Shown: piece after piece, positions 8,973 through 33,204 of the stretch
Numbering within the stretch: the stretch's first letter is position 1
Layout: each line of letters begins with the position of its first letter
Source of the DNA: Deltaproteobacteria bacterium
GTDB taxonomy: Bacteria > Desulfobacterota_D > UBA1144 > Nemesobacterales > UBA2774
Assembly (NCBI GenBank): GCA_029262275.1
Contig: JAJCZS010000029.1
Span: 62,001 to 126,000 of the forward strand
DNA length: 64,000 bases
Direction: 5' to 3'
The notes under the pieces: model-generated
Seen by the model: only the letters and a program-made list of their open reading frames with translations
Databases searched by the model: none
Told to the model about the DNA's origin: nothing
Program-made: the position numbers and the translations under genes

Positions 8973-10121
8973 ATGACAAAACCACATACAACAACTACGA
9001 GACCCTCTCTTGAAATTATAAAAGAGAATAACAATACACTTAGGCTCAAAGTTAAGGGTTCCTTGAATGCCTATACAACCGCTGTTATATGGAATGATTC
9101 TCTATCAGAGTTTAAAAAAACAAACCCAAAAGAATTAATACTTGACGGAGCAGGAATCGATTACTGTGACGCCTCTGGTATCGCTTTTATAACCGATCTT
9201 AGAATTAAACAAGATGAAGCAGGCGGGGCCTACAAAGTAGAAGGGCTCTCAGATGAAATAAACAAACTATATAAACTCTTTGATCCTAAGGATTTTGAAA
9301 AACCTGAGGAAATAGAATCTAAAGTCTCAGAAAACAAAATAGAAGCCGCAGGCAGATTAGGTTATGCCGCCTGGGAAGAATTGAAAATAAATATAGTTTT
9401 CACTGGTCGTGTTACCGTAGCTCTATTTCAGGCACTACTTCGTCCAGACAAGATTAGATGGCGGGATGTATTTGTCACATCAGAGAAATTTGGAGCAAAT
9501 GCTCTATTTATAATAGCACTTGTGAACTTTCTAGTAGGGCTTGTAATTGCTTTTCAGTCAGCCGTTCCCATGAAACAATACGGAGCCCAGATATTTGTGG
9601 CTGACCTACTGGTTATCGCATATTTTAAAGAGTTAGGTCCTCTTATGACAGCATTTGTTGTAAACGGCAGAAGCGGATCTGCCTTTGCAGCGGAGCTTGG
9701 AACAATGAAGGTAAACGAGGAGCTTGATGCACTTGATACTATGGGGCTAGATCCAGTTCCTTTTCTGGTTGTGCCAAAAGTAATTGCTTCTGTAGCTATG
9801 CTGCCGCTACTAACAGTCTTTGGAAACCTCTTTGGACTAATCGGAGGACTGGTTGTTATGTTTTCTCTCGGCTTTACCTTTTCTACATATATAAATCAGC
9901 TTACAATTGCAGCCACATACGGAATGCTGCTAGCGGGATTATTCAAAACACTCTTTTTTGCTGTAATTATTGCTGGCGTTGGTTGTCTTGCTGGAATGAG
10001 AGCAGCAAAAGGACCTTCTGCTGTAGGTGATGCTGCTACAAAAGCTGTGGTTGTAGGAATAGTGCTAATGATCTTAGTAGATGGTTTGTTCGGAGTCATA
10101 TACTACATTTTGGGAATATAA
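8973..10121 (+). CDS. mlaE: MlaE-type ABC permease with N-terminal STAS domain
   Basis: Permease of the Mla/MCE phospholipid transporter between inner and outer membrane. Residues about 15-110 form a STAS domain (ILDGAGIDYCDASGIAFI, with the conserved D-x-SG), the module that is a separate protein, MlaB, in Escherichia coli. About residues 130-382 are the permease with about five membrane helices and the family stretch GRSGSAFAAELGTMKVNEEL. The fusion fixes a 1:1 ratio of STAS and permease. First gene of a four-gene operon; its stop is followed one base later by the mlaF start. Confidence 0.9.
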   Translation: MTKPHTTTTRPSLEIIKENNNTLRLKVKGSLNAYTTAVIWNDSLSEFKKTNPKELILDGAGIDYCDASGIAFITDLRIKQDEAGGAYKVEGLSDEINKLYKLFDPKDFEKPEEIESKVSENKIEAAGRLGYAAWEELKINIVFTGRVTVALFQALLRPDKIRWRDVFVTSEKFGANALFIIALVNFLVGLVIAFQSAVPMKQYGAQIFVADLLVIAYFKELGPLMTAFVVNGRSGSAFAAELGTMKVNEELDALDTMGLDPVPFLVVPKVIASVAMLPLLTVFGNLFGLIGGLVVMFSLGFTFSTYINQLTIAATYGMLLAGLFKTLFFAVIIAGVGCLAGMRAAKGPSAVGDAATKAVVVGIVLMILVDGLFGVIYYILGI

Positions 10122-22426: not shown

Positions 22427-23860
22427 TTATGCATTTCTTGCTCTTCCCATAGCAGCCAATGCGGCCTCCATTACTGCTTCGGACAGAGTAGGGTGGGCAT
22501 GAGAAGTCATAGCTATCTCAAGCGGGGTTGATTCTAAAGTGCGAGCAACTCCTATCTCCGCGATTAACTCGGTTGCTCCATGGCCAATTATATGAGTCCC
22601 TAGTATCTCACCTGTACTTTTTTCTGAAATTATTTTTACAAACCCGTCTGTCTCACCAGTTCCAACAGCTTTTCCTGCTGCCCGGAAGGGGAATTTACCA
22701 ACATTATAATCAAAACCTTTTTCCTGCACCTGCTCCTCAGTAAATCCTATTGTAGCAACTTCCGGCTGGCAATAGACACATCCGGGAATATTGTTATAAT
22801 GAACTTTGCTATTTTGGCCTGCCATCATCTCTACCGCAGCAACACCTTCCTCAGAGGCCTTATGAGCCAATAACGGCGGGCCTATTATGTCTCCAATAGC
22901 ATAAACATTGCTGCAAGTGGTCATATATTGATCATCAGTTTTAATAAATCCTCTTTCATCAAGCTCTATACGTAGATCACTAAGTCCAATATCACCACTT
23001 TTCTTGTAAAAACTAAGAGATGTAGGCGCATCATTTGCAACCGGCCTTCTTCCTACTGCAACAAGCACCATAGAGGTCGTTATTTTTGTCTCTGTTTGGT
23101 TTGACATATTCTCAAGTATTACATCAACTGTCTTCTTTTTCTTATTGACTTCCTTGAATTTTGTTCCAGTTAGAACTGTCATTCCACTTTTCTTAAAAAG
23201 CCTTTGCAGCTCACGAGCAACTTCTTTATCGGCTCCCGGTATAATGTTGTCCATCATCTCAACTATTGTCACTTTACTTCCAAAGGAATTATATACATAT
23301 GCAAATTCAGCACCAATATATCCTCCGCCTATAACAACAACTGATTCAGGAACTTCTCTATGAAATATCGCCTCATCGCTTGTCATTATTAACTTTCCGT
23401 CTATATCTAGCCCGGGAAGTGTTACGGGAACAGACCCCGTAGCAATCATTATTTTATCAGTATCTATTTCAAACTGGTCCTTTTCTCCAGTTACTCCAAT
23501 CTTGTTATTTGTTATTAATTTGCCGGTACCGCTAAAGAGAGTGATTTTATTTTTCTTAAATAGGTATTCAACACCTTTATTTAGCGTAGATGAAGCCTTT
23601 CTGCTCTTATCAATAACTTTAGAGAAATCATAAGAAAGACCTTTATGTTGTATGCCGAACTCCTCTGAATGATTGAAGTATTGATAGACTTCCGCACACT
23701 TTAAGATTGACTTTGAGGGAATACAGCCCCAATTAAGACACACACCACCGGGTTTATCCCTTTCTATCACCGCGACCTTCATTCCAAGTTGGGCAGCTCT
23801 TATAGCTCCCACATAGCCACCAGGGCCAGATCCTATAACTGTTAAGTCAAATTTTTCCAT
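22427..23860 (-). CDS. lpd: Dihydrolipoyl dehydrogenase (E3)
   Basis: FAD flavoprotein that reoxidises dihydrolipoamide of the pyruvate dehydrogenase complex with NAD. FAD-binding GSGPGGYVGAIRAAQLG at about 10-26; redox disulfide Cys41/Cys46 in CLNWGCIPSK; NAD site VVIGGGYIGAEFAYVY near 176-191; active-site His-Glu in SHAHPTLSEAVMEA near the C-terminus. 477 residues. Its ATG directly follows CAGGGCT. Divergent from aceE, giving a split but compact PDH locus. Confidence 0.96.
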   Translation of the reverse strand: MEKFDLTVIGSGPGGYVGAIRAAQLGMKVAVIERDKPGGVCLNWGCIPSKSILKCAEVYQYFNHSEEFGIQHKGLSYDFSKVIDKSRKASSTLNKGVEYLFKKNKITLFSGTGKLITNNKIGVTGEKDQFEIDTDKIMIATGSVPVTLPGLDIDGKLIMTSDEAIFHREVPESVVVIGGGYIGAEFAYVYNSFGSKVTIVEMMDNIIPGADKEVARELQRLFKKSGMTVLTGTKFKEVNKKKKTVDVILENMSNQTETKITTSMVLVAVGRRPVANDAPTSLSFYKKSGDIGLSDLRIELDERGFIKTDDQYMTTCSNVYAIGDIIGPPLLAHKASEEGVAAVEMMAGQNSKVHYNNIPGCVYCQPEVATIGFTEEQVQEKGFDYNVGKFPFRAAGKAVGTGETDGFVKIISEKSTGEILGTHIIGHGATELIAEIGVARTLESTPLEIAMTSHAHPTLSEAVMEAALAAMGRARNA

Positions 23861-24009
23861 AGCCCTGTTATTATATATTCAATAACACCTTGGTCAATCC
23901 TTTGGCATTATTGATCTCTTAATTTATTGTGGTCAGAATATAAATTGAAGAATCTATTTCCTTAGAGCAGTATCAAAAATAAAGTAGCATGTATAATATG
24001 TTAAGGGAA

Positions 24010-24039
24010 TTGACGAATATCTAATCATTGCTGTAAAAT
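24010..24039 (+). promoter_or_regulatory. Candidate aceE promoter
   Basis: TTGACG (24010-24015), an 18-base spacer and TAAAAT (24034-24039) lie immediately before the aceE ATG at 24049, which has no ribosome site. Initiation would fall about three bases before the start codon. A second TATAAT at 23992-23997 without a -35 is an alternative giving a leader of about 45 bases. Confidence 0.4.
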
Positions 24040-24048
24040 TTGAATAAA

Positions 24049-26733
24049 ATGAATAAAAAGCCTGATAAGAAGAAAGAGAATATTTCAGAAGAAGAGTTAG
24101 AAAATAAAGAGTGGATAGAATCACTTGACTATGTATTAGATAATGCTGGAGAACAGCGTGCGGCTATACTCATAAAGAAGCTTCAAATCCACGCCCAGAA
24201 AAGAGGAGTTAAGCTACCATTTACAGCCAATACTCCCTATATCAATACAATTGCTACAGAAAAACAGCCAAAGTACCCTGGCGATCCAGAGATAGAATGG
24301 AAGATAAGGAGTCTGATTAGGTGGAACGCTATGGCTATGGTTGTTAGAGCCAACAGACTAGAGGAGGGAATTGGAGGCCACATATCCACATTCGCCTCGG
24401 CTGCTGCATTATATGAAGTTGCTTTTAATCATTTCCTACGTGGCAGAAATGAAAACCATGAAGGTGATATTGTCTATTTCCAAGGTCACGCAGCCCCTGG
24501 AATCTATGCTAGAGCGTTTCTTGAAGGACGACTTAGCATAGAAGACCTTCAAAACTTTAGAAGAGACCTTCAGCCTGAAGGTGGGCTTACATCTTATCCC
24601 CATCCATGGTTAATGCCTAATTTTTGGCAGTTTCCTACAGTATCCATGGGCCTAAGCCCCATTATGGCAATCTATCAGGCCAGATTTAACCGCTATCTTG
24701 AGGATAGAGGGCTTAAAAAGCGCTCAGATGCCAAAGTATGGGCTTTCTTAGGAGACGGAGAGACTGATGAGCCTGAAACCCTAGGAGCTATAACTCTAGC
24801 ATCGAGGGAACATCTGGACAATCTGATTTTTGTGGTCAACTGCAACCTTCAACGCCTAGATGGCCCCGTTAGAGGAAACGGGAAAATAATCCAGGAGCTT
24901 GAGGCAATCTTTAGGGGCGCCGGATGGAACGTAATTAAAGTCATATGGGGAAGCAATTGGGATCCGCTCATTTCTGAAGATAAAGATGGCATTCTTGTTA
25001 AAAGAATGACCGATGCCCTTGATGGTGATTATCAAAAATACTCTGTCGCTTCTGGTGAATATATACGGTCTCATTTTTTTGGTACCGACCCTAGACTCCA
25101 GGAGATGGTAAAAAATCTCTCAGACACCGAGCTTCAAAAACTAAGAAGGGGGGGTCATGACCCAGAGAAGATATTTCCGGCATTTAAAGAAGCTGTTGAA
25201 AACACTGGCTCGCCAACTGTCATACTAGCAAAAACAATTAAGGGTTACGGACTTGGAGAAGCTGGAGAGGGGAGAAACATCACCCACCAGCAAAAAAAGT
25301 TAAACGAAGATGAGCTCAAGCTTTTTAAGAAACGTTTTGATATTCCCATATCTGATGAAGATGTCTCAAGAGCGCCTTTTTACAAACCATCAAAGGACAG
25401 TCCAGAGGTCAAATATATAAAAGAACGAAGAGAAGAGCTTGGAGGTTATCTTCCAAAGCGTGAGGTTATTTGTGATCCAATAAAACCGCCTTCTGAGAAA
25501 CTATTTGAAGAATTCCATAAAGGGTCAAAAACTAGAGAAGTAGCTACAACAATGGCATTTGTTAGGATGCTTGCCAAGATGCTTAAAGATAAAAACATTG
25601 GCAAACTCATCGTACCAATTGTACCGGATGAAGCCCGCACTTTTGGCATGGAAGCACTTTTTAGACAGGTTGGGATTTACTCTCATGTAGGTCAGCTCTA
25701 CGATCCAGTGGACGCTGAAACACTTCTATACTACAAAGAAGCGGTTGACGGTCAAATATTAGAAGAAGGCATCACCGAGGCAGGCTCAATGTCTTCATTT
25801 ATAGCAGCGGGAACCGCCTATGCTACACATGGAATTAATACAATCCCGTTTTTCATCTACTACTCGATGTTTGGATTCCAAAGAATAGGAGACCTAGTTT
25901 GGGCCGCAGCGGACATGAGATGTAAAGGGTTTATGATAGGAGGAACAGCCGGCAGAACAACCCTTGCAGGAGAGGGACTTCAACACCAAGACGGCCATAG
26001 CCATCTACTTGCCTATCCAGTGCCAAACTTAAAGGCCTACGACCCTGCTTTTGCATATGAAATAGCTGTGATTATAGAAGACGGCATAAAACGTATGTAC
26101 GTTGATAGAGAAGATCTTTTTTACTATATAACTGTGATGAACGAGAGCTATATTCAACCCTCAATGCCCGAGGGAGTTAAAGATGGAATATTAAAAGGCA
26201 TCTATAAATTTAGGGATTCTGAGAATAAGGAAGCAACTCTTCATGCACAACTTTTTGGAAGTGGCACCATACTCAACGAAGTACTAAAAGCACAGGAAGT
26301 ACTAGGTGAGAAGTACGGCGTGGCTGCAGACGTATGGAGTGTTACCAGCTATAAGGAGCTCTACCGTGACGGTCTTGATAAAGAACGTTGGAACATGCTT
26401 CATCCCTCTGAAATAAAAAGAGTTCCATACATAACGGAGTGTGTGAAAGATGCTCCAGGAGTTTTCGTTGCAGCATCAGACTATGTCATGGCTCTGCCTG
26501 ATTCCATATCACAATGGCTACCCAAACCACTTGTTTCACTTGGAACAGACGGGTTTGGCAGAAGTGCTGGTAGAAAAGAGCTTAGGGACTTTTTTGAAGT
26601 TGACTGGAGGTACATAACACTTGCCGTACTAGCTTCTCTAACCTGGGAGAAAAAAATTGATCCGGCCGTAGTAGAAAAGGCAATACGGGACATGGATATA
26701 AACCCAAGCAAAGCAAACCCTATACTTTCATAA
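24049..26733 (+). CDS. aceE: Pyruvate dehydrogenase E1 (homodimeric type)
   Basis: Decarboxylates pyruvate on thiamine diphosphate and passes the acetyl group to AceF. About 894 residues, the AceE length, clearly the single-chain type rather than PdhA/PdhB. Thiamine-diphosphate motif GDGETDEPE at about 240-248, ending in VNCNLQRLDGPVRGN; HGINTIPFFIYYSMFGFQR and GRTTLAGEGLQHQDGHSH in the second half. ATG at 24049 is preferred over an in-frame TTG at 24040. A Lys/Glu-rich N-terminal tail of about 30 residues precedes the core. Followed by aceF after 89 bases. Confidence 0.96.
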   Translation: MNKKPDKKKENISEEELENKEWIESLDYVLDNAGEQRAAILIKKLQIHAQKRGVKLPFTANTPYINTIATEKQPKYPGDPEIEWKIRSLIRWNAMAMVVRANRLEEGIGGHISTFASAAALYEVAFNHFLRGRNENHEGDIVYFQGHAAPGIYARAFLEGRLSIEDLQNFRRDLQPEGGLTSYPHPWLMPNFWQFPTVSMGLSPIMAIYQARFNRYLEDRGLKKRSDAKVWAFLGDGETDEPETLGAITLASREHLDNLIFVVNCNLQRLDGPVRGNGKIIQELEAIFRGAGWNVIKVIWGSNWDPLISEDKDGILVKRMTDALDGDYQKYSVASGEYIRSHFFGTDPRLQEMVKNLSDTELQKLRRGGHDPEKIFPAFKEAVENTGSPTVILAKTIKGYGLGEAGEGRNITHQQKKLNEDELKLFKKRFDIPISDEDVSRAPFYKPSKDSPEVKYIKERREELGGYLPKREVICDPIKPPSEKLFEEFHKGSKTREVATTMAFVRMLAKMLKDKNIGKLIVPIVPDEARTFGMEALFRQVGIYSHVGQLYDPVDAETLLYYKEAVDGQILEEGITEAGSMSSFIAAGTAYATHGINTIPFFIYYSMFGFQRIGDLVWAAADMRCKGFMIGGTAGRTTLAGEGLQHQDGHSHLLAYPVPNLKAYDPAFAYEIAVIIEDGIKRMYVDREDLFYYITVMNESYIQPSMPEGVKDGILKGIYKFRDSENKEATLHAQLFGSGTILNEVLKAQEVLGEKYGVAADVWSVTSYKELYRDGLDKERWNMLHPSEIKRVPYITECVKDAPGVFVAASDYVMALPDSISQWLPKPLVSLGTDGFGRSAGRKELRDFFEVDWRYITLAVLASLTWEKKIDPAVVEKAIRDMDINPSKANPILS

Positions 26734-26822
26734 TAGTTAAATTTGTTGGACCATAGAAATAAAGAAAAAACGAAACATAAGATATAATTAACATCAAAGA
26801 ATATTGTTTGAGGTAGGACTGC

Positions 26823-28175
26823 ATGACAATTGAATACAAGTTACCCGACCTGGGTGAAGATATTGAGACAGGAGACGTAATAGGAGTATTTGTTTCAGCT
26901 GGAGATAAAGTTGCTGAAGACCAGGCTCTTTTAGAGGTAGAAACTGATAAGGCTGCAATAGAAATTCCTTCACCGGCTAGAGGAATAGTAAAAGAAGTAC
27001 ACGTAAGTGAGGGAGATACTATTAAAGTTGGTCAGCTCCTAGTCACCATAGACGACGGCAAAGGGAGCGGGAAGGACAGAAATGTAGAAGAAGTTCAAGA
27101 AGTAGAAATCCAAGATGACACAATAGAAGAAATCGCTGAGAAAGAAGTACAAGAAGAAACATATGCCGATCCCGAACCTGAAGAAGAAATAGGAGCCAGT
27201 ACTGAGCAAGAAACGGTATCAGATACAGAAGAAGCCACAGACAAAGCCACCGAGAAAACCAGCCCCGCATCTCCCTCAATAAGAAGATTGGCTAGAGAGC
27301 AAGGTGTGGATATTGAATCCGTAGAAGGCACAGGACCCGGTGGGCGAATATCAGAAGAGGACATTCTAAACCTAGACCCTGGCAACAAATCAAAAACAAA
27401 ATCAAGGCAACAAGAGTCTAAAACTACTGGAACTAAAGTAGAACAGCCCAGCAGCAAAGCAGACGCTGACAAATGGGGAGACACAGAGAGAACTCCCATG
27501 ACAAGAGTCAGAAAGCTTACCGCAGAGCGCCTGACCGAAGCTTGGACAGCTCCTCATGTAACACAATACGACAAAGCAGATATAACCGAGCTTGAAAAGC
27601 TAAGAAAAGGATTTGGTCAGAGCATTGCAAAGGCTGGCGGAAAATTAACAACTACCTCAATTTTATTAAAAGTAGTTGCCTCTGCTCTAGAAGTTTTCCC
27701 TCAATTCAACGCAAGTGTAGATATGGAAAATGAAGAAATTATCTACAAGAAGTACTACAACATTGGAGTTGCCGTAGATACAGAGAGGGGCCTACTCGTT
27801 CCTGTTATAAAAGATGTTAATGAAAAAAGTATTGCGCAATTATCTGTGGAGTTAAGTAAGCTTTCAGAAAAGGCCAGGAACAAAAGGATCTCTGTTGGCG
27901 AGCTACAAGGCGGGACCTTTACTATCTCCAACTTGGGTGGCCTTGGGGGCACATATTTTTCGCCTGTATTAAATACCCCGGAAGTGGCCATTTTAGGAAT
28001 ATCTAGATCAGCGGTAGAGCCTGTATATATTGATGGAGAATTTTCACCAAGACTCATGCTCCCACTATCTCTTTCCTATGATCACAGACTAATAGACGGG
28101 GCTGATGCTATCAGATTCTTACGTTGGATAATTGAAACTTTGGAAGAGCCATTAAAATTGTCACTAGAAGGTTAG
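26823..28175 (+). CDS. aceF: Dihydrolipoyl acetyltransferase (PDH E2)
   Basis: Core of the pyruvate dehydrogenase complex, transferring acetyl to CoA. One lipoyl domain with the modified Lys43 (EVETDKAAIEIP), an acidic flexible linker of about 60 residues rich in Glu, the E1/E3-binding domain SPSIRRLAREQGVDIESVEG at about 150-170, a second linker, and the catalytic domain ending with SLSYDHRLIDGADA (catalytic His and Asp). 450 residues. GAGGTAGGACTGC precedes the ATG. The next gene starts 12 bases after the stop and is probably co-transcribed. Confidence 0.96.
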   Translation: MTIEYKLPDLGEDIETGDVIGVFVSAGDKVAEDQALLEVETDKAAIEIPSPARGIVKEVHVSEGDTIKVGQLLVTIDDGKGSGKDRNVEEVQEVEIQDDTIEEIAEKEVQEETYADPEPEEEIGASTEQETVSDTEEATDKATEKTSPASPSIRRLAREQGVDIESVEGTGPGGRISEEDILNLDPGNKSKTKSRQQESKTTGTKVEQPSSKADADKWGDTERTPMTRVRKLTAERLTEAWTAPHVTQYDKADITELEKLRKGFGQSIAKAGGKLTTTSILLKVVASALEVFPQFNASVDMENEEIIYKKYYNIGVAVDTERGLLVPVIKDVNEKSIAQLSVELSKLSEKARNKRISVGELQGGTFTISNLGGLGGTYFSPVLNTPEVAILGISRSAVEPVYIDGEFSPRLMLPLSLSYDHRLIDGADAIRFLRWIIETLEEPLKLSLEG

Positions 28176-28187
28176 TCTACAAAAAAC

Positions 28188-29675
28188 ATGAGCAGCTTAG
28201 ACAACAATACCAAAATAGCTAGCCTTGAAATACTGCCTGAAGAAAGGTATTTGGATGCGATCGTAGATGTTGTAAGTGATCTTGCAAGCGCAAACGGTAT
28301 AACTAAAAAAGACACCAAGAATCTGGACAAAGTTTTAGTTGAGATTTTCAAAAACATTGTTAAGTATGGATTTGAAGAAGACACCTGTAAACCAATACTC
28401 ATCTCCATCTATAAACGCCTTCATAGTTTTGTGATTGCTATAGAAGATAAAGGTCTTCCCTTTGATTATGAGAACCTTGAACATGGTGAAGACAAAAGGT
28501 TCAAATCATATTTATCTAAAGGATATGCAGATCAGGTTCACTTTTATTCTCTAGGGAATCTGGGAAACAGGACTGAGATTGTAAAGAATCTACCTTCATC
28601 TGACATTCGAGAGGAAATGGACATTTCAGAACATCATGAGCACTTAAAACTAGAACCAGTAGAATCAGATGCAGAGGTAAAGATTGATATCTTAGATGAA
28701 AATAAAATTCATGAGCTAGTGAGGTTAGTCTACAAATGTTATGGCTATACTTATGCCAATGAATTTATGTACTATCCCGAGCAAATTGAATCCCGCTTAA
28801 AGTCTAGTTTGATGTCATCATGTGCTGCATATGATGCTGACGACAATCTAGTAGGGCACCTGGCATTTATTTATAGCAAACCAGGGGCAAAAGTAGGCGA
28901 ATCCGGGGAAGCGGTCGTAGACCCACGTTACCGGGGGCATGGCATTTTCCCTAAAATGAAGAGATTTATGACTGAGCATGCCGTATCACAGGGAGTAATT
29001 GGAGTTTACGGAGAAGCAGTAACAATTCATCCCTATAGCCAAAAAGGAAGCCTTGAGCTGGGTTCGGCTGAGACAGGTTTTTTGCTTGGTTATAGTCCTG
29101 GAACTGTTTCATTTCAAAACATATCTGAGGATGAAAAACCAAGACGCCAGTCAATAGCTCTGATGTATACTCCGGTTCTTAAAAGCAATCATACCAAGGT
29201 TTATGTGCCTCAGATCTACGAAGAATTGGTTAAGACAATCTACAATCAGATCGGATATGAAAGGGAATTTCTTACAGAAAATAAAGACTCCAATTATTTA
29301 AAAAAAGGGAAGGGGCACATCTCTGTATCCATACGCTCAGACCATAACCAGGGAATTATCTCGGTCTCTAAATACGGCAAAAACACCTTAGAAGAAATTC
29401 ACTTTCATTTAAAACAGCTTTGTCTGCAGAGGATAGATTGCATATATGTCGACATACCTCTTAACAAAAAGGGCTCAGGTTATCTTGCCTCAAAACTAAG
29501 GGAGCTAAGCTTTTTCTATGGGTATCTGATCCCTGAGTACTCGGATTCAGATGTCCTAAGACTTCAGTATCTAAACAACGTGGAGATCTCAAAAGAAGAT
29601 ATCAAAACAGCATCAGAGTTTGGGGAGAAACTCTTAGATATAATATTCGATGACTGGTCGCAAGCTACAAAATAG
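28188..29675 (+). CDS. GHKL ATPase-GNAT acetyltransferase fusion protein
   Basis: 495 residues joining two domain types. Residues about 12-145 resemble an RsbW-like GHKL ATPase: N box EIFKNIVKYG (E52, N56), G1 box EDKGLPFD (D87, G89) and a glycine-rich LGNLGNRTEIVKN. Residues about 170-330 look like a GNAT acetyltransferase with the acetyl-CoA loop DPRYRGHGIFPKM (about 245-257). The rest, to 495, may be a second degenerate GNAT-like fold. No His phosphoacceptor domain or membrane segment. It follows aceF by 12 bases, so a link to acetyl-CoA supply is an attractive but unproven inference. Confidence 0.75.
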   Translation: MSSLDNNTKIASLEILPEERYLDAIVDVVSDLASANGITKKDTKNLDKVLVEIFKNIVKYGFEEDTCKPILISIYKRLHSFVIAIEDKGLPFDYENLEHGEDKRFKSYLSKGYADQVHFYSLGNLGNRTEIVKNLPSSDIREEMDISEHHEHLKLEPVESDAEVKIDILDENKIHELVRLVYKCYGYTYANEFMYYPEQIESRLKSSLMSSCAAYDADDNLVGHLAFIYSKPGAKVGESGEAVVDPRYRGHGIFPKMKRFMTEHAVSQGVIGVYGEAVTIHPYSQKGSLELGSAETGFLLGYSPGTVSFQNISEDEKPRRQSIALMYTPVLKSNHTKVYVPQIYEELVKTIYNQIGYEREFLTENKDSNYLKKGKGHISVSIRSDHNQGIISVSKYGKNTLEEIHFHLKQLCLQRIDCIYVDIPLNKKGSGYLASKLRELSFFYGYLIPEYSDSDVLRLQYLNNVEISKEDIKTASEFGEKLLDIIFDDWSQATK

Positions 29676-29681
29676 TTCTAA

Positions 29682-29813
29682 TTACTTTTTGATATCATTT
29701 AAGTCTTTCCATATAATCGGAATAACTGCTCCGTTAATCTTATCCCCATCACTTTTTATAAAATCGGCTTTGGGTATGTTCGCAAGAAATACTGCCTTGA
29801 CATAGCACACCAT
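29682..29813 (-). CDS. Doubtful small frame or remnant
   Basis: A minus-strand frame from ATG at 29813 to TAA at 29682 encodes 43 residues with protein-like composition (IPKADFIKSDGDKINGAV and a Trp/Lys-rich end). It occupies the spacer between two plus-strand genes and has no ribosome site. The frame is open upstream into the next gene's antisense. It may be the tail of a lost gene. I do not recognise it. Confidence 0.25.
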   Translation of the reverse strand: MVCYVKAVFLANIPKADFIKSDGDKINGAVIPIIWKDLNDIKK

Positions 29814-29856
29814 AAAGTCATAAAATAGTTTTGGCTTAATAACGGGCAGAGATAAT

Positions 29857-30192
29857 ATGGAACTCTTTATTTCAATGCAGGCTGAAATCCTAAATAAGGG
29901 CATCTACTTTGAATGCACAGCTATGCAGATGCCTACTGCAAGGACAGGGGAGCAATTTGTAGCTGAATTTAGGGAAGGTGACAAAGACAAATTAGACCTC
30001 TTAAAAAGATACGTAGAAATCCTAGATAATAAGCTGAGCGATGATAACCAATTTCATATAGAACATACTAACTATGGTTTTAAGGTGCTGAAACCTGTGG
30101 ATCCAGACAAAGACTATATGGAACTATGGGAAGAATGGGTAGTTTTTACACAACGGCTACTAGATGAATTAAAGCAGGTAGTTGGCGAATAG
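29857..30192 (+). CDS. Small soluble protein of unknown function
   Basis: 111 residues, acidic, with no signal or membrane segment. Visible parts: EILNKGIYFECTAMQMP near 10-26, a helical stretch KDKLDLLKRYVEILDNKLS, a beta-like HIEHTNYGFKVLKPVDP and a C-terminal helix with ELWEEWVVFTQRLLDELK. The composition and continuous frame argue for a real gene. Family not recognised. Between the ATPase-GNAT gene and ileS on the same strand. Confidence 0.65.
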   Translation: MELFISMQAEILNKGIYFECTAMQMPTARTGEQFVAEFREGDKDKLDLLKRYVEILDNKLSDDNQFHIEHTNYGFKVLKPVDPDKDYMELWEEWVVFTQRLLDELKQVVGE

Positions 30193-30202
30193 AGTCTAAT
30201 AT

Positions 30203-30327
30203 TTACAGCTTCTTTAAGCGTTCTAGAACTTGCATTTCATCCCATCTAAGCTAATATTTTCCCTCAACTCATAGAAGATATTATGTCTTTTTTCCAATGA
30301 AACATTATCTGAAAATGCAGTTTTCAA
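30203..30327 (-). pseudogene. Probable frameshifted remnant of a small gene
   Basis: On the minus strand, from TTG at 30327, the frame reads LKTAFSDNVSLEKRHNIF and continues to ELRENIS before losing sense and stopping at 30223. One frame over, LRWDEMQVLERLKKL runs to TAA at 30203. A single inserted base after the ENIS codons would give one 41-residue frame. No start with a ribosome site. This fills most of the 165-base spacer before ileS. Confidence 0.3.
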
Positions 30328-30357
30328 AGAATAATTTAGGAGATTAATTAGAGTTAG

Positions 30358-33204
30358 ATGTCAGAAGCTAAAAAAATCAATTACAAAGATACCCTTAACC
30401 TTCCAAAGACCACTTTTCCTATGAAGGCAAATCTCAGTCAAAAAGAGCCTGAGATTCAAAAGAGATGGGAAAAAATAAACCTTTACGAGAGAATAAGAGA
30501 GGGGTCACAGGGGAAAGACAAATTTATCTTTCACGATGGACCTCCATATGCAAATGGACCCATTCACCTAGGGCATCTTTTAAACAAAGTTCTAAAAGAC
30601 ATAGTCGTTAGATCAAAAACCATGCTCGGATACGATGTGGACTTTATTCCAGGATGGGACTGTCACGGACTCCCAATTGAGCACAAAGTTTTAAAGGAAC
30701 TCGGAGACAAAGCAAAAGACCTATCAAAACTTCAAATAAGATACAAATGTCAGGCAGACGCAGAGAAATATGTAAAGATGCAGTCCAAGCAAATGAAGAG
30801 ACTCGGCACGATTGGTAATTATAATGACCCTTATTTAACGATGACCCCTGACTACGAAGCTGGAGTGCTTGAAGTATTCTCAAAGTTGGTTGAAAGAGGT
30901 CTGATTTATAGAGATTTAAAACCTGTGCACTGGTCAATTGAAAATCAAACAGCTTTAGCCGATGCAGAGCTTGAATATTATGACCGGGAAGACAGAAGCA
31001 TTTATGTTCTATTTGAAATTGAGAATTCTGAGTCGCTTCCTAAAGAATTGAGTTTACCAGGTGGAGTTTCCGCGTCTCTCATAATTTGGACAACTACCCC
31101 TTGGACACTACCTGCAAACTTAGCAGTTGCCGTATCGGCTGATGGTAACTATGGCTTATACAAAGTAAAGAAAAGTGGAAATGATCACTTTGTAATTATC
31201 GTAGATAACCTGGCAGAGAGTGTATTTAAAAAAGCTGGTGTCACAGAATACGAGAAACTTGGCAGATGCAAAGGTCAGGACTTGGTGGATAGATCTACTA
31301 GTTATAAACATCCTTTTGTAGACAGATCAGGAAAAGTCGTAACAGCTGAATACGTCACTTTTGAAGATGGAACAGGTCTCGTACATACAGCTCCAGGTCA
31401 TGGTGTTGATGACTATCAAACAGGGCTCAAAGAAGGGCTTGATATTTATTGTCCAGTTCTGGGAGACGGTACATTTGATGATACGGTTCCCGAGTGGATA
31501 CGTGGCATAGATGTATGGGAAGGAAACGAGGTTATAACAAATCATCTAAAGACCTCAGGTCATCTGTTTCACGACCAAGAGTATCTTCACAGCTATCCTC
31601 ACGACTGGAGAAGTAAAACACCTACCATATTTAGAGCTACAGAACAGTGGTTTGTAGGGGTCGACAAAAGCACGCCTGAGCTAGAAAAAAGTCTAAGAGA
31701 GCTTGGACTTGATGCTACGGAAAACAAAATAAATTTTTATCCCGATTGGGGAAGAAATCGTCTAAGAGGGATGCTTGAGTCAAGACCTGACTGGTGTATC
31801 AGCAGACAACGCGCATGGGGTCTTCCAATACCAGCATTTCTAAATGATAAAGATGAAATTCTTTTAACTCCAAATTCAGTAAAAGTAGTGATAGATAAAA
31901 TCAGAAAAAATGGAGCAAACTTTTGGTTTAAAGCTGAGCCTCATGAAATAATAGAAGGATATGATCCCAAGGCTGACGAGCTCGCTCCAGAGTGGGCTAA
32001 GCAAGATGGAGCACTCCAAAACTTAAAATTAGGAATGGACATATTTGATGTCTGGTTTGAATCGGGATCATCATGGCACTCTGTTTTAGAACAAAGAAAC
32101 ATTGGCTACCCGGCTGATCTATACCTTGAGGGATCAGATCAACACAGAGGCTGGTTTCAGCTTTCACTATTGCCGGCTTTAGGGGCAACAGGGATACCTC
32201 CTTTCAAAGCACTTCTAACCCACGGGTTTATGGTTGATGCTCAGGGCAGAAAGATGAGCAAGTCAGGTGGTAACGCACTTGAGGTTGAAGAGCTTTTAAA
32301 AACAAATGGAGCTGACATATGCCGCTGGTGGGTAAGCTCTCTTAAATATACAAACGATATAAAAGTGGATCTTGAGTTCTTCAAAGTAGCGGGGGATGAA
32401 TATCGCAAAGTTAGAAATACGATCAGGTTCCTACTTGGAAATATTAATGATTTTGACCCGGCAAAAGATTCAGTCGAGTTTATTCAAGAAGATGCAAATT
32501 CAATTGATGCGTGGGCAATGTCAGAGCTATCTAAATTTGTAACTGATACTAAACAGGCATATCAAAATCTGGACTATAAAAAGGCAAACGAGTTAATATT
32601 CCATTTCTGTTATGAGACATTAAGTGCGGTCTATTTGGCAGCGATAAAAGATAGACTTTATTGTGAGAAGAATGATAGTAGAAAAAGAAGACGCTCACAA
32701 ACCGTAATGCATGAAATGGCTGAAGCACTCATAACACTTATGTCTCCGATACTAGTCCATACATCTGATGAGGCATATAGGAGCCTAAAAGGTGAGGAAC
32801 CAGATAGTCCAAACAGTATTCATCTCCTGGAAATGCCGGAGACACTACAAATTGAAACTGATTCAAATTGGAATAAAGTAATGGAATTGAGGGGTGAGGC
32901 TCTCAAGGCGATCGAGGATGCAAAAGCTTCTGATGGCATAAGTAATCCTCTTGATACAGGAGTTGTTGTAAATCTAGACTCTGAATCATTTAAGAAACTA
33001 AAACCTTTTGAATCAGAATTTGCAGACCTTTGTGGAGTTAGCAGATTCACATTAAATGAATCTGACACCCTAAATATCTCTGTTGAAAATTTAAGCGAAG
33101 AGCCAAGATGTGAGCGCTCCTGGAAAAGAGATACCACAGTTAAAGAACGCTCAGATGGTGGTTTCCTATCTGACCGCGATGCTGAGGCATTAGGACTAAC
33201 TTAG
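30358..33204 (+). CDS. ileS: Isoleucyl-tRNA synthetase
   Basis: Class I synthetase charging tRNA-Ile. HIGH motif PYANGPIHLGHLLNK at about 62-76, editing-domain stretches such as IIWTTTPWTLPANLAVAV and GLVHTAPGHG, KMSKS loop GRKMSKSGGN at about 630-639, and an anticodon-binding helical domain. 948 residues, bacterial type. The C-terminal zinc finger is degenerate: the first pair reads RCERSWKR with one Cys left, and the second pair is replaced in FLSDRDAEAL. AGGAG at 30338 is rather far from the ATG. Confidence 0.96.
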   Translation: MSEAKKINYKDTLNLPKTTFPMKANLSQKEPEIQKRWEKINLYERIREGSQGKDKFIFHDGPPYANGPIHLGHLLNKVLKDIVVRSKTMLGYDVDFIPGWDCHGLPIEHKVLKELGDKAKDLSKLQIRYKCQADAEKYVKMQSKQMKRLGTIGNYNDPYLTMTPDYEAGVLEVFSKLVERGLIYRDLKPVHWSIENQTALADAELEYYDREDRSIYVLFEIENSESLPKELSLPGGVSASLIIWTTTPWTLPANLAVAVSADGNYGLYKVKKSGNDHFVIIVDNLAESVFKKAGVTEYEKLGRCKGQDLVDRSTSYKHPFVDRSGKVVTAEYVTFEDGTGLVHTAPGHGVDDYQTGLKEGLDIYCPVLGDGTFDDTVPEWIRGIDVWEGNEVITNHLKTSGHLFHDQEYLHSYPHDWRSKTPTIFRATEQWFVGVDKSTPELEKSLRELGLDATENKINFYPDWGRNRLRGMLESRPDWCISRQRAWGLPIPAFLNDKDEILLTPNSVKVVIDKIRKNGANFWFKAEPHEIIEGYDPKADELAPEWAKQDGALQNLKLGMDIFDVWFESGSSWHSVLEQRNIGYPADLYLEGSDQHRGWFQLSLLPALGATGIPPFKALLTHGFMVDAQGRKMSKSGGNALEVEELLKTNGADICRWWVSSLKYTNDIKVDLEFFKVAGDEYRKVRNTIRFLLGNINDFDPAKDSVEFIQEDANSIDAWAMSELSKFVTDTKQAYQNLDYKKANELIFHFCYETLSAVYLAAIKDRLYCEKNDSRKRRRSQTVMHEMAEALITLMSPILVHTSDEAYRSLKGEEPDSPNSIHLLEMPETLQIETDSNWNKVMELRGEALKAIEDAKASDGISNPLDTGVVVNLDSESFKKLKPFESEFADLCGVSRFTLNESDTLNISVENLSEEPRCERSWKRDTTVKERSDGGFLSDRDAEALGLT

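Follow-up and report, generated by a model that had tools for sequence, protein, structure and literature searches.

Just downstream of the E2 gene of a pyruvate dehydrogenase (PDH) locus, the window (the whole stretch of 64,000 nucleotides analysed here) carries a gene whose product appears to combine a signalling ATPase fold with an acetyltransferase. What might such a protein do, and is its place beside PDH part of the answer? The reading frame on the forward strand (28188-29675) is open over 495 aa, and, as originally predicted, its ATG at 28188 follows the aceF stop (28175) by 12 bases. The gene and the parts of its product are:

28188-29675, forward strand: GHKL-GNAT-pseudoGNAT gene, an open frame of 495 aa (Pfam, AlphaFold model)
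28209-28595, forward strand: N-terminal GHKL domain, SpoIIAB/RsbW-like, residues ~8-136 (Pfam HATPase_c_2; Z 15.5 against 1th8_A)
28341-28355, forward strand: N-box EIFKN, residues 52-56; the Asn retained by 13 of the 17 phylum homologues
28446-28460, forward strand: G1 box DKGLP, residues 87-91; D87, G89 and P91 unchanged in every one of these 17
28491-28514, forward strand: position of the ATP lid or G2 box, residues 102-109 with the sequence DKRFKSYL; without GxG, R104 and F105 invariant in 17 of 17
28674-29192, forward strand: first GNAT domain, probable catalytic domain, residues 163-335 (Pfam; Z up to 12.9; five invariant residues)
28920-28949, forward strand: GNAT acetyl-CoA loop DPRYRGHGIF, residues 245-254
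29028-29045, forward strand: family motif HPYSQK, residues 281-286
29193-29672, forward strand: C-terminal domain, by its model degenerate GNAT-like, residues 336-495 (separate model of 333-495; Foldseek; Z 8-10)

The proposed union of GHKL and GNAT in one chain was confirmed by both sequence profiles and predicted structure. Pfam places HATPase_c_2 at residues 18-103 (7e-9, 36.2 bits against a cut-off of 27.4) and Acetyltransf_1 at residues 176-270 (1.5e-4, 22.4 bits against a cut-off of 20.7). An AlphaFold model of the full chain, computed from 17 homologues (pLDDT 81.8, pTM 0.83), agrees with Pfam on the order, a non-GNAT N-terminal domain and then a GNAT. In this model the N-terminal domain matches SpoIIAB (1th8_A) with Z 15.5 over 124 aligned residues (rmsd 2.5), and residues ~162-335 match GNATs with Z up to 12.9 over 150 aligned residues (rmsd 3.0); within the GNAT, residues 279-291 and 304-319 are poorly modelled (pLDDT < 50). 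The fold-search list for the whole model is filled with GNATs and SpoIIAB-like chains, which could hide other relations.

The third region was folded separately (residues 333-495, from 22 sequences) with a pLDDT of 93.5. Among the best 50 Foldseek matches listed, this model finds mainly GNATs (E ~2e-4 to 6e-3), and the scores are moderate (query-normalised TM 0.34-0.45, Z 8-9.3). The top Z values, 10.2 and 10.1, belong to the N-domains of NUDT6 and NUDT7, from which antizyme and GNATs differ by about 1 Z at most; we take the NUDT6/7 N-domains and antizyme to be GNAT-like folds as well. On the strength of the model we read residues 336-495 as a degenerate second GNAT-like domain, one in which there is no recognisable acetyl-CoA loop. 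Structure prediction of three regions, suggested at the outset as a check, thus returns a SpoIIAB/RsbW-like GHKL fold for the N-terminal part, a GNAT, and what looks like a second, degenerate GNAT.

A chance fusion or an assembly artefact was set aside in view of the spread of the protein. Of 57 genomes in the phylum, 17 encode it at full length, that of the window included, and the other 16 proteins are 43-80% identical to the window protein; 10 further genomes of the 57 have short matches to the GHKL part only. Other phyla seldom have full-length homologues, with 5 further genomes in one set of 386. The 386 genomes around G167 gave 25 matches: eight intact full-length proteins, one broken copy, one protein of G095 that has the GNAT and C-terminal domain and lacks the GHKL part, and 15 GHKL-only matches. 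The broken copy (L045:7489-8990, genome G059) is frameshifted, perhaps as a pseudogene, perhaps through faulty assembly. Two genomes carry divergent paralogues, two in G340 (L078, L079) and three in G407 (L145-L147). In the tree the 17 proteins of the phylum form a single group (100/100), placed beside the homologues of G068, G072 and G075 (99/98). Purifying selection acts on the whole chain, GHKL domain included: in six pairs, dN/dS is 0.05-0.24 in all domains, values that stand only for partitions with finite dS, as most partitions of the two pairs that join the window protein to its closest relatives are saturated.

What kind of GHKL domain is this? Motifs were counted in an alignment of 31 sequences, 17 from the phylum and 14 intact homologues of other phyla. 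The N-box and G1 box are where the original prediction put them, and the window protein has both N56 and D87. The N-box Asn is kept in 13 of 17 proteins of the phylum (lost in 4 of 17) and in 8 of 14 elsewhere; in the G1 box, G89 and P91 never vary across the 31 sequences, nor does D87 within the 17 of the phylum. The glycine-rich stretch LGNLGNR (residues 122-128), originally listed as part of the ATPase core, is also conserved, but it is not the lid, being located beyond the position where a GHKL lid belongs. At the lid itself GxG is found in none of the 17 proteins of the phylum, the window protein among them, against 6 of 14 in other phyla. Instead, Arg-Phe (R104, F105) is invariant in the lid region of all 17, where 11 of the 14 others have Gly-Leu or Gly-Met. 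The HATPase_c_2 match of the window protein ends at position 90 of the 127 in the profile, and that of the G068 homologue reaches 127. A match to position 127 is also seen in L042, within the phylum, and therefore the GHKL fold continues past position 90. The NCBIfam equivalog model for RsbW gives the window protein 20.2 bits, below its cut-off of 145. Judging from the aligned motifs, the GHKL domain seems to have lost its ATP lid motif in this phylum, and its best reading is a pseudo-kinase-like regulatory domain, which may act on the GNAT.

The core of the first GNAT domain is conserved. All 31 aligned homologues, across phyla, have Y195, E238, R249, H281 and Q285, and of these E238 and H281 are candidate catalytic residues. 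The acetyl-CoA loop of the window protein, RGHGIF (249-254), contains R-x-x-G and ends in Phe. Counting against activity, its last Gly/Ala is replaced by Phe in 17 of 17 proteins of the phylum and its middle Gly by H or K in 6 of 17; the strict form R/Q-x-x-G-x-G/A is found in 1 of 31 homologues. We infer that the first GNAT is active as an acetyltransferase.

The second part of the question concerns the neighbouring genes, which in the window are:

22427-23860, reverse strand: lpd1, divergent from aceE
24040-26733, forward strand: aceE, homodimeric E1 (TIGR00759, over cut-off)
26823-28175, forward strand: aceF, E2 (best NCBIfam match TIGR01348, long E2, 483.5 bits, under its cut-off of 552.1); stop 12 bases before the GHKL-GNAT gene

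An aceF gene is visible upstream, on the same strand, at 13 of the 17 loci of the phylum, which bears out the association with aceF that had been proposed. In 12 of these 13 loci, however, a second E3 gene (lpd2) lies between aceF and the GHKL-GNAT gene, so that "directly behind" describes the window, the sole exception. At two more loci (L032 and L011) lpd2 is upstream and is followed by the contig edge. The lpd2 copies are 63-100% identical to that of L034, which scores over the TIGR01350 cut-off. A search of the window's genome did not find lpd2, its best match (38%) being lpd1. Because relatives carry lpd2 between the two genes and the window's genome is without it, the direct adjacency to aceF is a derived state: the order in relatives is aceE-aceF-lpd2-gene, and lpd2 was lost here, with lpd1 probably the remaining E3. 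Measured to its earliest in-frame start, the GHKL-GNAT gene lies -44 to 37 nt behind lpd2 at 13 of the 14 loci with lpd2, and 1069 nt behind it in L040. An apparent loss of the GHKL-GNAT gene in G004 was discarded, as the contig stops at lpd2.

PDH is not the only constant neighbour. A convergent SDR gene lies within ~350 nt of the 3' end in 14 of 16 relatives; it is ~3.1 kb away in L040 and absent from L031 and from the window's genome. This gene is FabG-like (L034:7239-7988 and homologues). At two of the 17 loci (L041 and L042) PDH genes were not seen, L041 showing only 1.5 kb upstream, and the SDR gene is present at both; it equals PDH in persistence and is retained even at loci that lack PDH. 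Synteny in the phylum runs on to lipB and ileS, and therefore gene order alone is no proof of function and the proximity to PDH may reflect general conservation. Upstream of ileS, the window also encodes a conserved 111-aa protein (29857-30192), 45-72% identical in the loci of 11 relatives and without a match in Pfam or NCBIfam. Promoter-like and terminator-like sites in the window stretch 23800-30400 are at or under chance level, and no Shine-Dalgarno sequence at normal spacing is evident by eye before the gene. The gene is probably co-expressed with PDH, and may be co-transcribed with it. A functional link to PDH is plausible, with the SDR association and the two PDH-less loci calling for caution.

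In other phyla the surroundings change. Searched at 1e-10, 17 stretches (L075-L082, L143-L150 and L085) gave no hit for aceE, aceF or lpd. Homologues lacking an aceF neighbour had been named as evidence against the proposed link; they make up 2 of the 17 loci in the phylum and all 17 of these stretches, so the objection applies in part. Genes for adenylating or acyl-CoA enzymes are neighbours in 5 of 16 stretches (L075-L082, L143-L150) by raw count, or 6 with the GH3-family gene next to the L082 homologue. Three of the five (L080, L144, L145) represent one orthologous cluster, with an MFS gene, two AMP-binding-type genes, LuxE and LuxC, and in the other two (L146, L149) the neighbours are AMP-binding acyl-CoA synthetases. 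A GHKL-GNAT homologue heads the LuxE/LuxC cluster (L145:1-5988, L080, L144), three stretches in which we recognised no gene for a luciferase, and one of the two AMP-binding-type genes (450 aa) is itself without a Pfam match. Adjoining the L082 homologue, fused RimK-like ATP-grasp and GH3-family ligase domains are encoded at L082:3046-5601. No biosynthetic neighbour is common to the whole family.

We therefore return to what the protein might do. With about even confidence, we regard it as an acetyl-CoA-dependent acetyltransferase with a lid-less GHKL regulatory domain, probably made from the PDH operon. Under this reading it would be an N-acetyltransferase whose chemistry is carried out by the first GNAT, while the second GNAT-like domain would serve structure or substrate docking. 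The N-terminal domain would descend from a partner-switching kinase of the RsbW/SpoIIAB type and, its lid motif for phosphoryl transfer being gone, would work as a regulatory domain that tunes the GNAT, either through a bound partner protein or through a nucleotide that it binds but does not turn over. Probably produced from the PDH operon, the protein would use acetyl-CoA made by PDH and might acetylate either a small molecule or a protein, the latter being PDH or some other acetyl-CoA enzyme. For the role first suggested, a sensor of acetyl-CoA or of its production, the analysis gave evidence neither for nor against. Historically, a partner-switching GHKL kinase may have joined a tandem GNAT, with the lid motif later lost in this phylum and the gene settling in the PDH operon.

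The alternative that fares best, possible although we doubt it, is a small-molecule acetyltransferase: the GNAT would acetylate a metabolite in the manner of AblB or Eis, the GHKL and second GNAT-like domains would be structural, and the place beside PDH would reflect stable gene order or acetyl-CoA supply. The variation of neighbours between phyla fits this, as does the SDR gene that remains where PDH is absent. The L143 homologue matches the model of the beta-lysine acetyltransferase AblB, although weakly and far under cut-off (1.4e-4). Tandem GNATs such as Eis also act on small molecules, according to the excerpt of PMC8556138 used here. Against it stand the lack of a biosynthetic neighbour common to the family and an N-terminal signalling fold held by purifying selection.

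A form of the regulated acetyltransferase that we consider unlikely is a bacterial counterpart of the pyruvate dehydrogenase kinases (PDKs). Here the GHKL-controlled enzyme of the PDH operon would acetylate PDH, or take acetyl groups at the lipoyl domain, at high acetyl-CoA and subject to an adenylate state that its lid-less GHKL domain senses. If true, a single operon would contain a closed post-translational feedback loop, and would do so across an order of uncultured bacteria.

It is improbable that the chain is a dead scaffold, a binding protein in which GHKL and GNAT are both non-catalytic. In favour of it, 30 of 31 homologues depart from the strict acetyl-CoA loop consensus, and antizyme is among the folds that the second GNAT-like domain resembles, but the five GNAT residues that never vary in 31 of 31 homologues across phyla point the other way.

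Still less probable is an RsbW-type switch with a GNAT attached, whose GHKL domain would bind a sigma factor or a STAS antagonist and phosphorylate the antagonist. Apart from the fold match to SpoIIAB and RsbW, such a role is suggested by gene neighbourhoods elsewhere. In G068 the homologue closes an operon-like run on one strand (a dCache-HAMP-SpoIIE gene, an RsbW-like gene, a STAS gene, then GHKL-GNAT), and on a Thiodictyon plasmid a GNAT-only relative lies near ATP-binding, SpoIIE and STAS genes, the ATP-binding gene being RsbW-like going by product name and length. Against it, none of the 17 proteins of the phylum has the GxG lid and 4 of them lack the N-box Asn. The usual partners of an RsbW kinase, a STAS antagonist and a PP2C-type phosphatase, were also not found: the window's genome (an assembly 97.5% complete) gave 0 matches to SpoIIE and no free STAS antagonist. 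Its single STAS match forms one chain with an MlaE-like permease (window 8973-10121), and no gene other than GHKL-GNAT is over the HATPase_c_2 cut-off, with one more match below it. In the permease gene the STAS part is N-terminal, and ABC ATPase and MlaD-like genes, named by eye, follow. With no lid and no SpoIIE, free STAS or second RsbW-like protein over cut-off, a sigma-factor switch is unlikely here and was set aside; the original expectation of sigma-factor or phosphatase switching is not borne out in this genome.

Last, the gene is encoded with aceE-aceF in most relatives and mitochondrial PDKs are GHKL kinases acting on PDH, but we give almost no credence to a PDK-like regulator (a GHKL domain that phosphorylates or docks on PDH, with a GNAT that reads or uses acetyl groups), as the domain is RsbW/SpoIIAB-like in sequence and fold and lacks the lid, and the E1 here is a homodimeric AceE, a type that PDKs are not known to phosphorylate.

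The regulated acetyltransferase, our preferred reading, would have implications beyond this locus. GNATs would gain a new kind of control module, a GHKL domain that drifts out of kinase chemistry as the GNAT residues are held constant, and a path would appear by which parts of partner switching enter metabolic acetylation. If the link to PDH is functional, it would offer directly testable feedback on the main source of acetyl-CoA in an uncultured lineage.

Among known systems, mitochondrial PDK shares with the window protein a GHKL fold tied to PDH, and it docks on the lipoyl domain of E2. It appears to belong to another GHKL subfamily and has no GNAT, and the window protein is without the lid; a PDK homologue was set aside since the GHKL domain here is RsbW/SpoIIAB-like, and no PDK family is among the Pfam matches of the window protein down to E 1. 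RsbW and SpoIIAB (HATPase_c_2) are like the window protein in the N-terminal fold, the N-box E and the D-x-G of the G1 box; unlike them, that part is joined to a GNAT and what we read as a second GNAT-like domain, lacks the lid GxG and has no partner set that we could find in the genome. CapK/CapS, as presented in the excerpt of PMC13373217, similarly place an RsbW-like module outside sigma-factor control, but CapK is described there as an active kinase with a STAS-like partner, whereas the window protein has no lid and no partner was found.

We found no description of a GHKL-GNAT fusion in the literature, as judged by the titles and openings of abstracts listed. Parallels come from other acetyltransferases. 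Regulated bacterial GNATs, in the portion of PMC8556138 considered, bear cAMP, amino-acid, NADP+ or acyl-CoA-synthetase domains, and N-terminal ligand domains (for cAMP, amino acids or NADP+) control the GNAT; its type III examples are the cAMP-GNAT proteins MsPat/MtPat, the ACT-GNAT protein PatB and the NADP+-sensing MxKat. The window protein would share with type III a ligand-type domain followed by a GNAT, if its N-terminal domain is regulatory as we propose; it differs in that this domain is GHKL, absent from the examples given in that portion, and in its added second GNAT-like domain. The same source describes tandem GNATs with one active domain (Eis, type V). Eis has two GNAT-type domains, as the window protein would on our reading, the second apparently without acetyl-CoA binding, but Eis is described there without GHKL and ends in a further C-terminal domain. 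The working principle, an N-terminal domain that controls a GNAT and a tandem GNAT of which one domain is active, is therefore known, and the GHKL module would be new to the list given in that part of PMC8556138.
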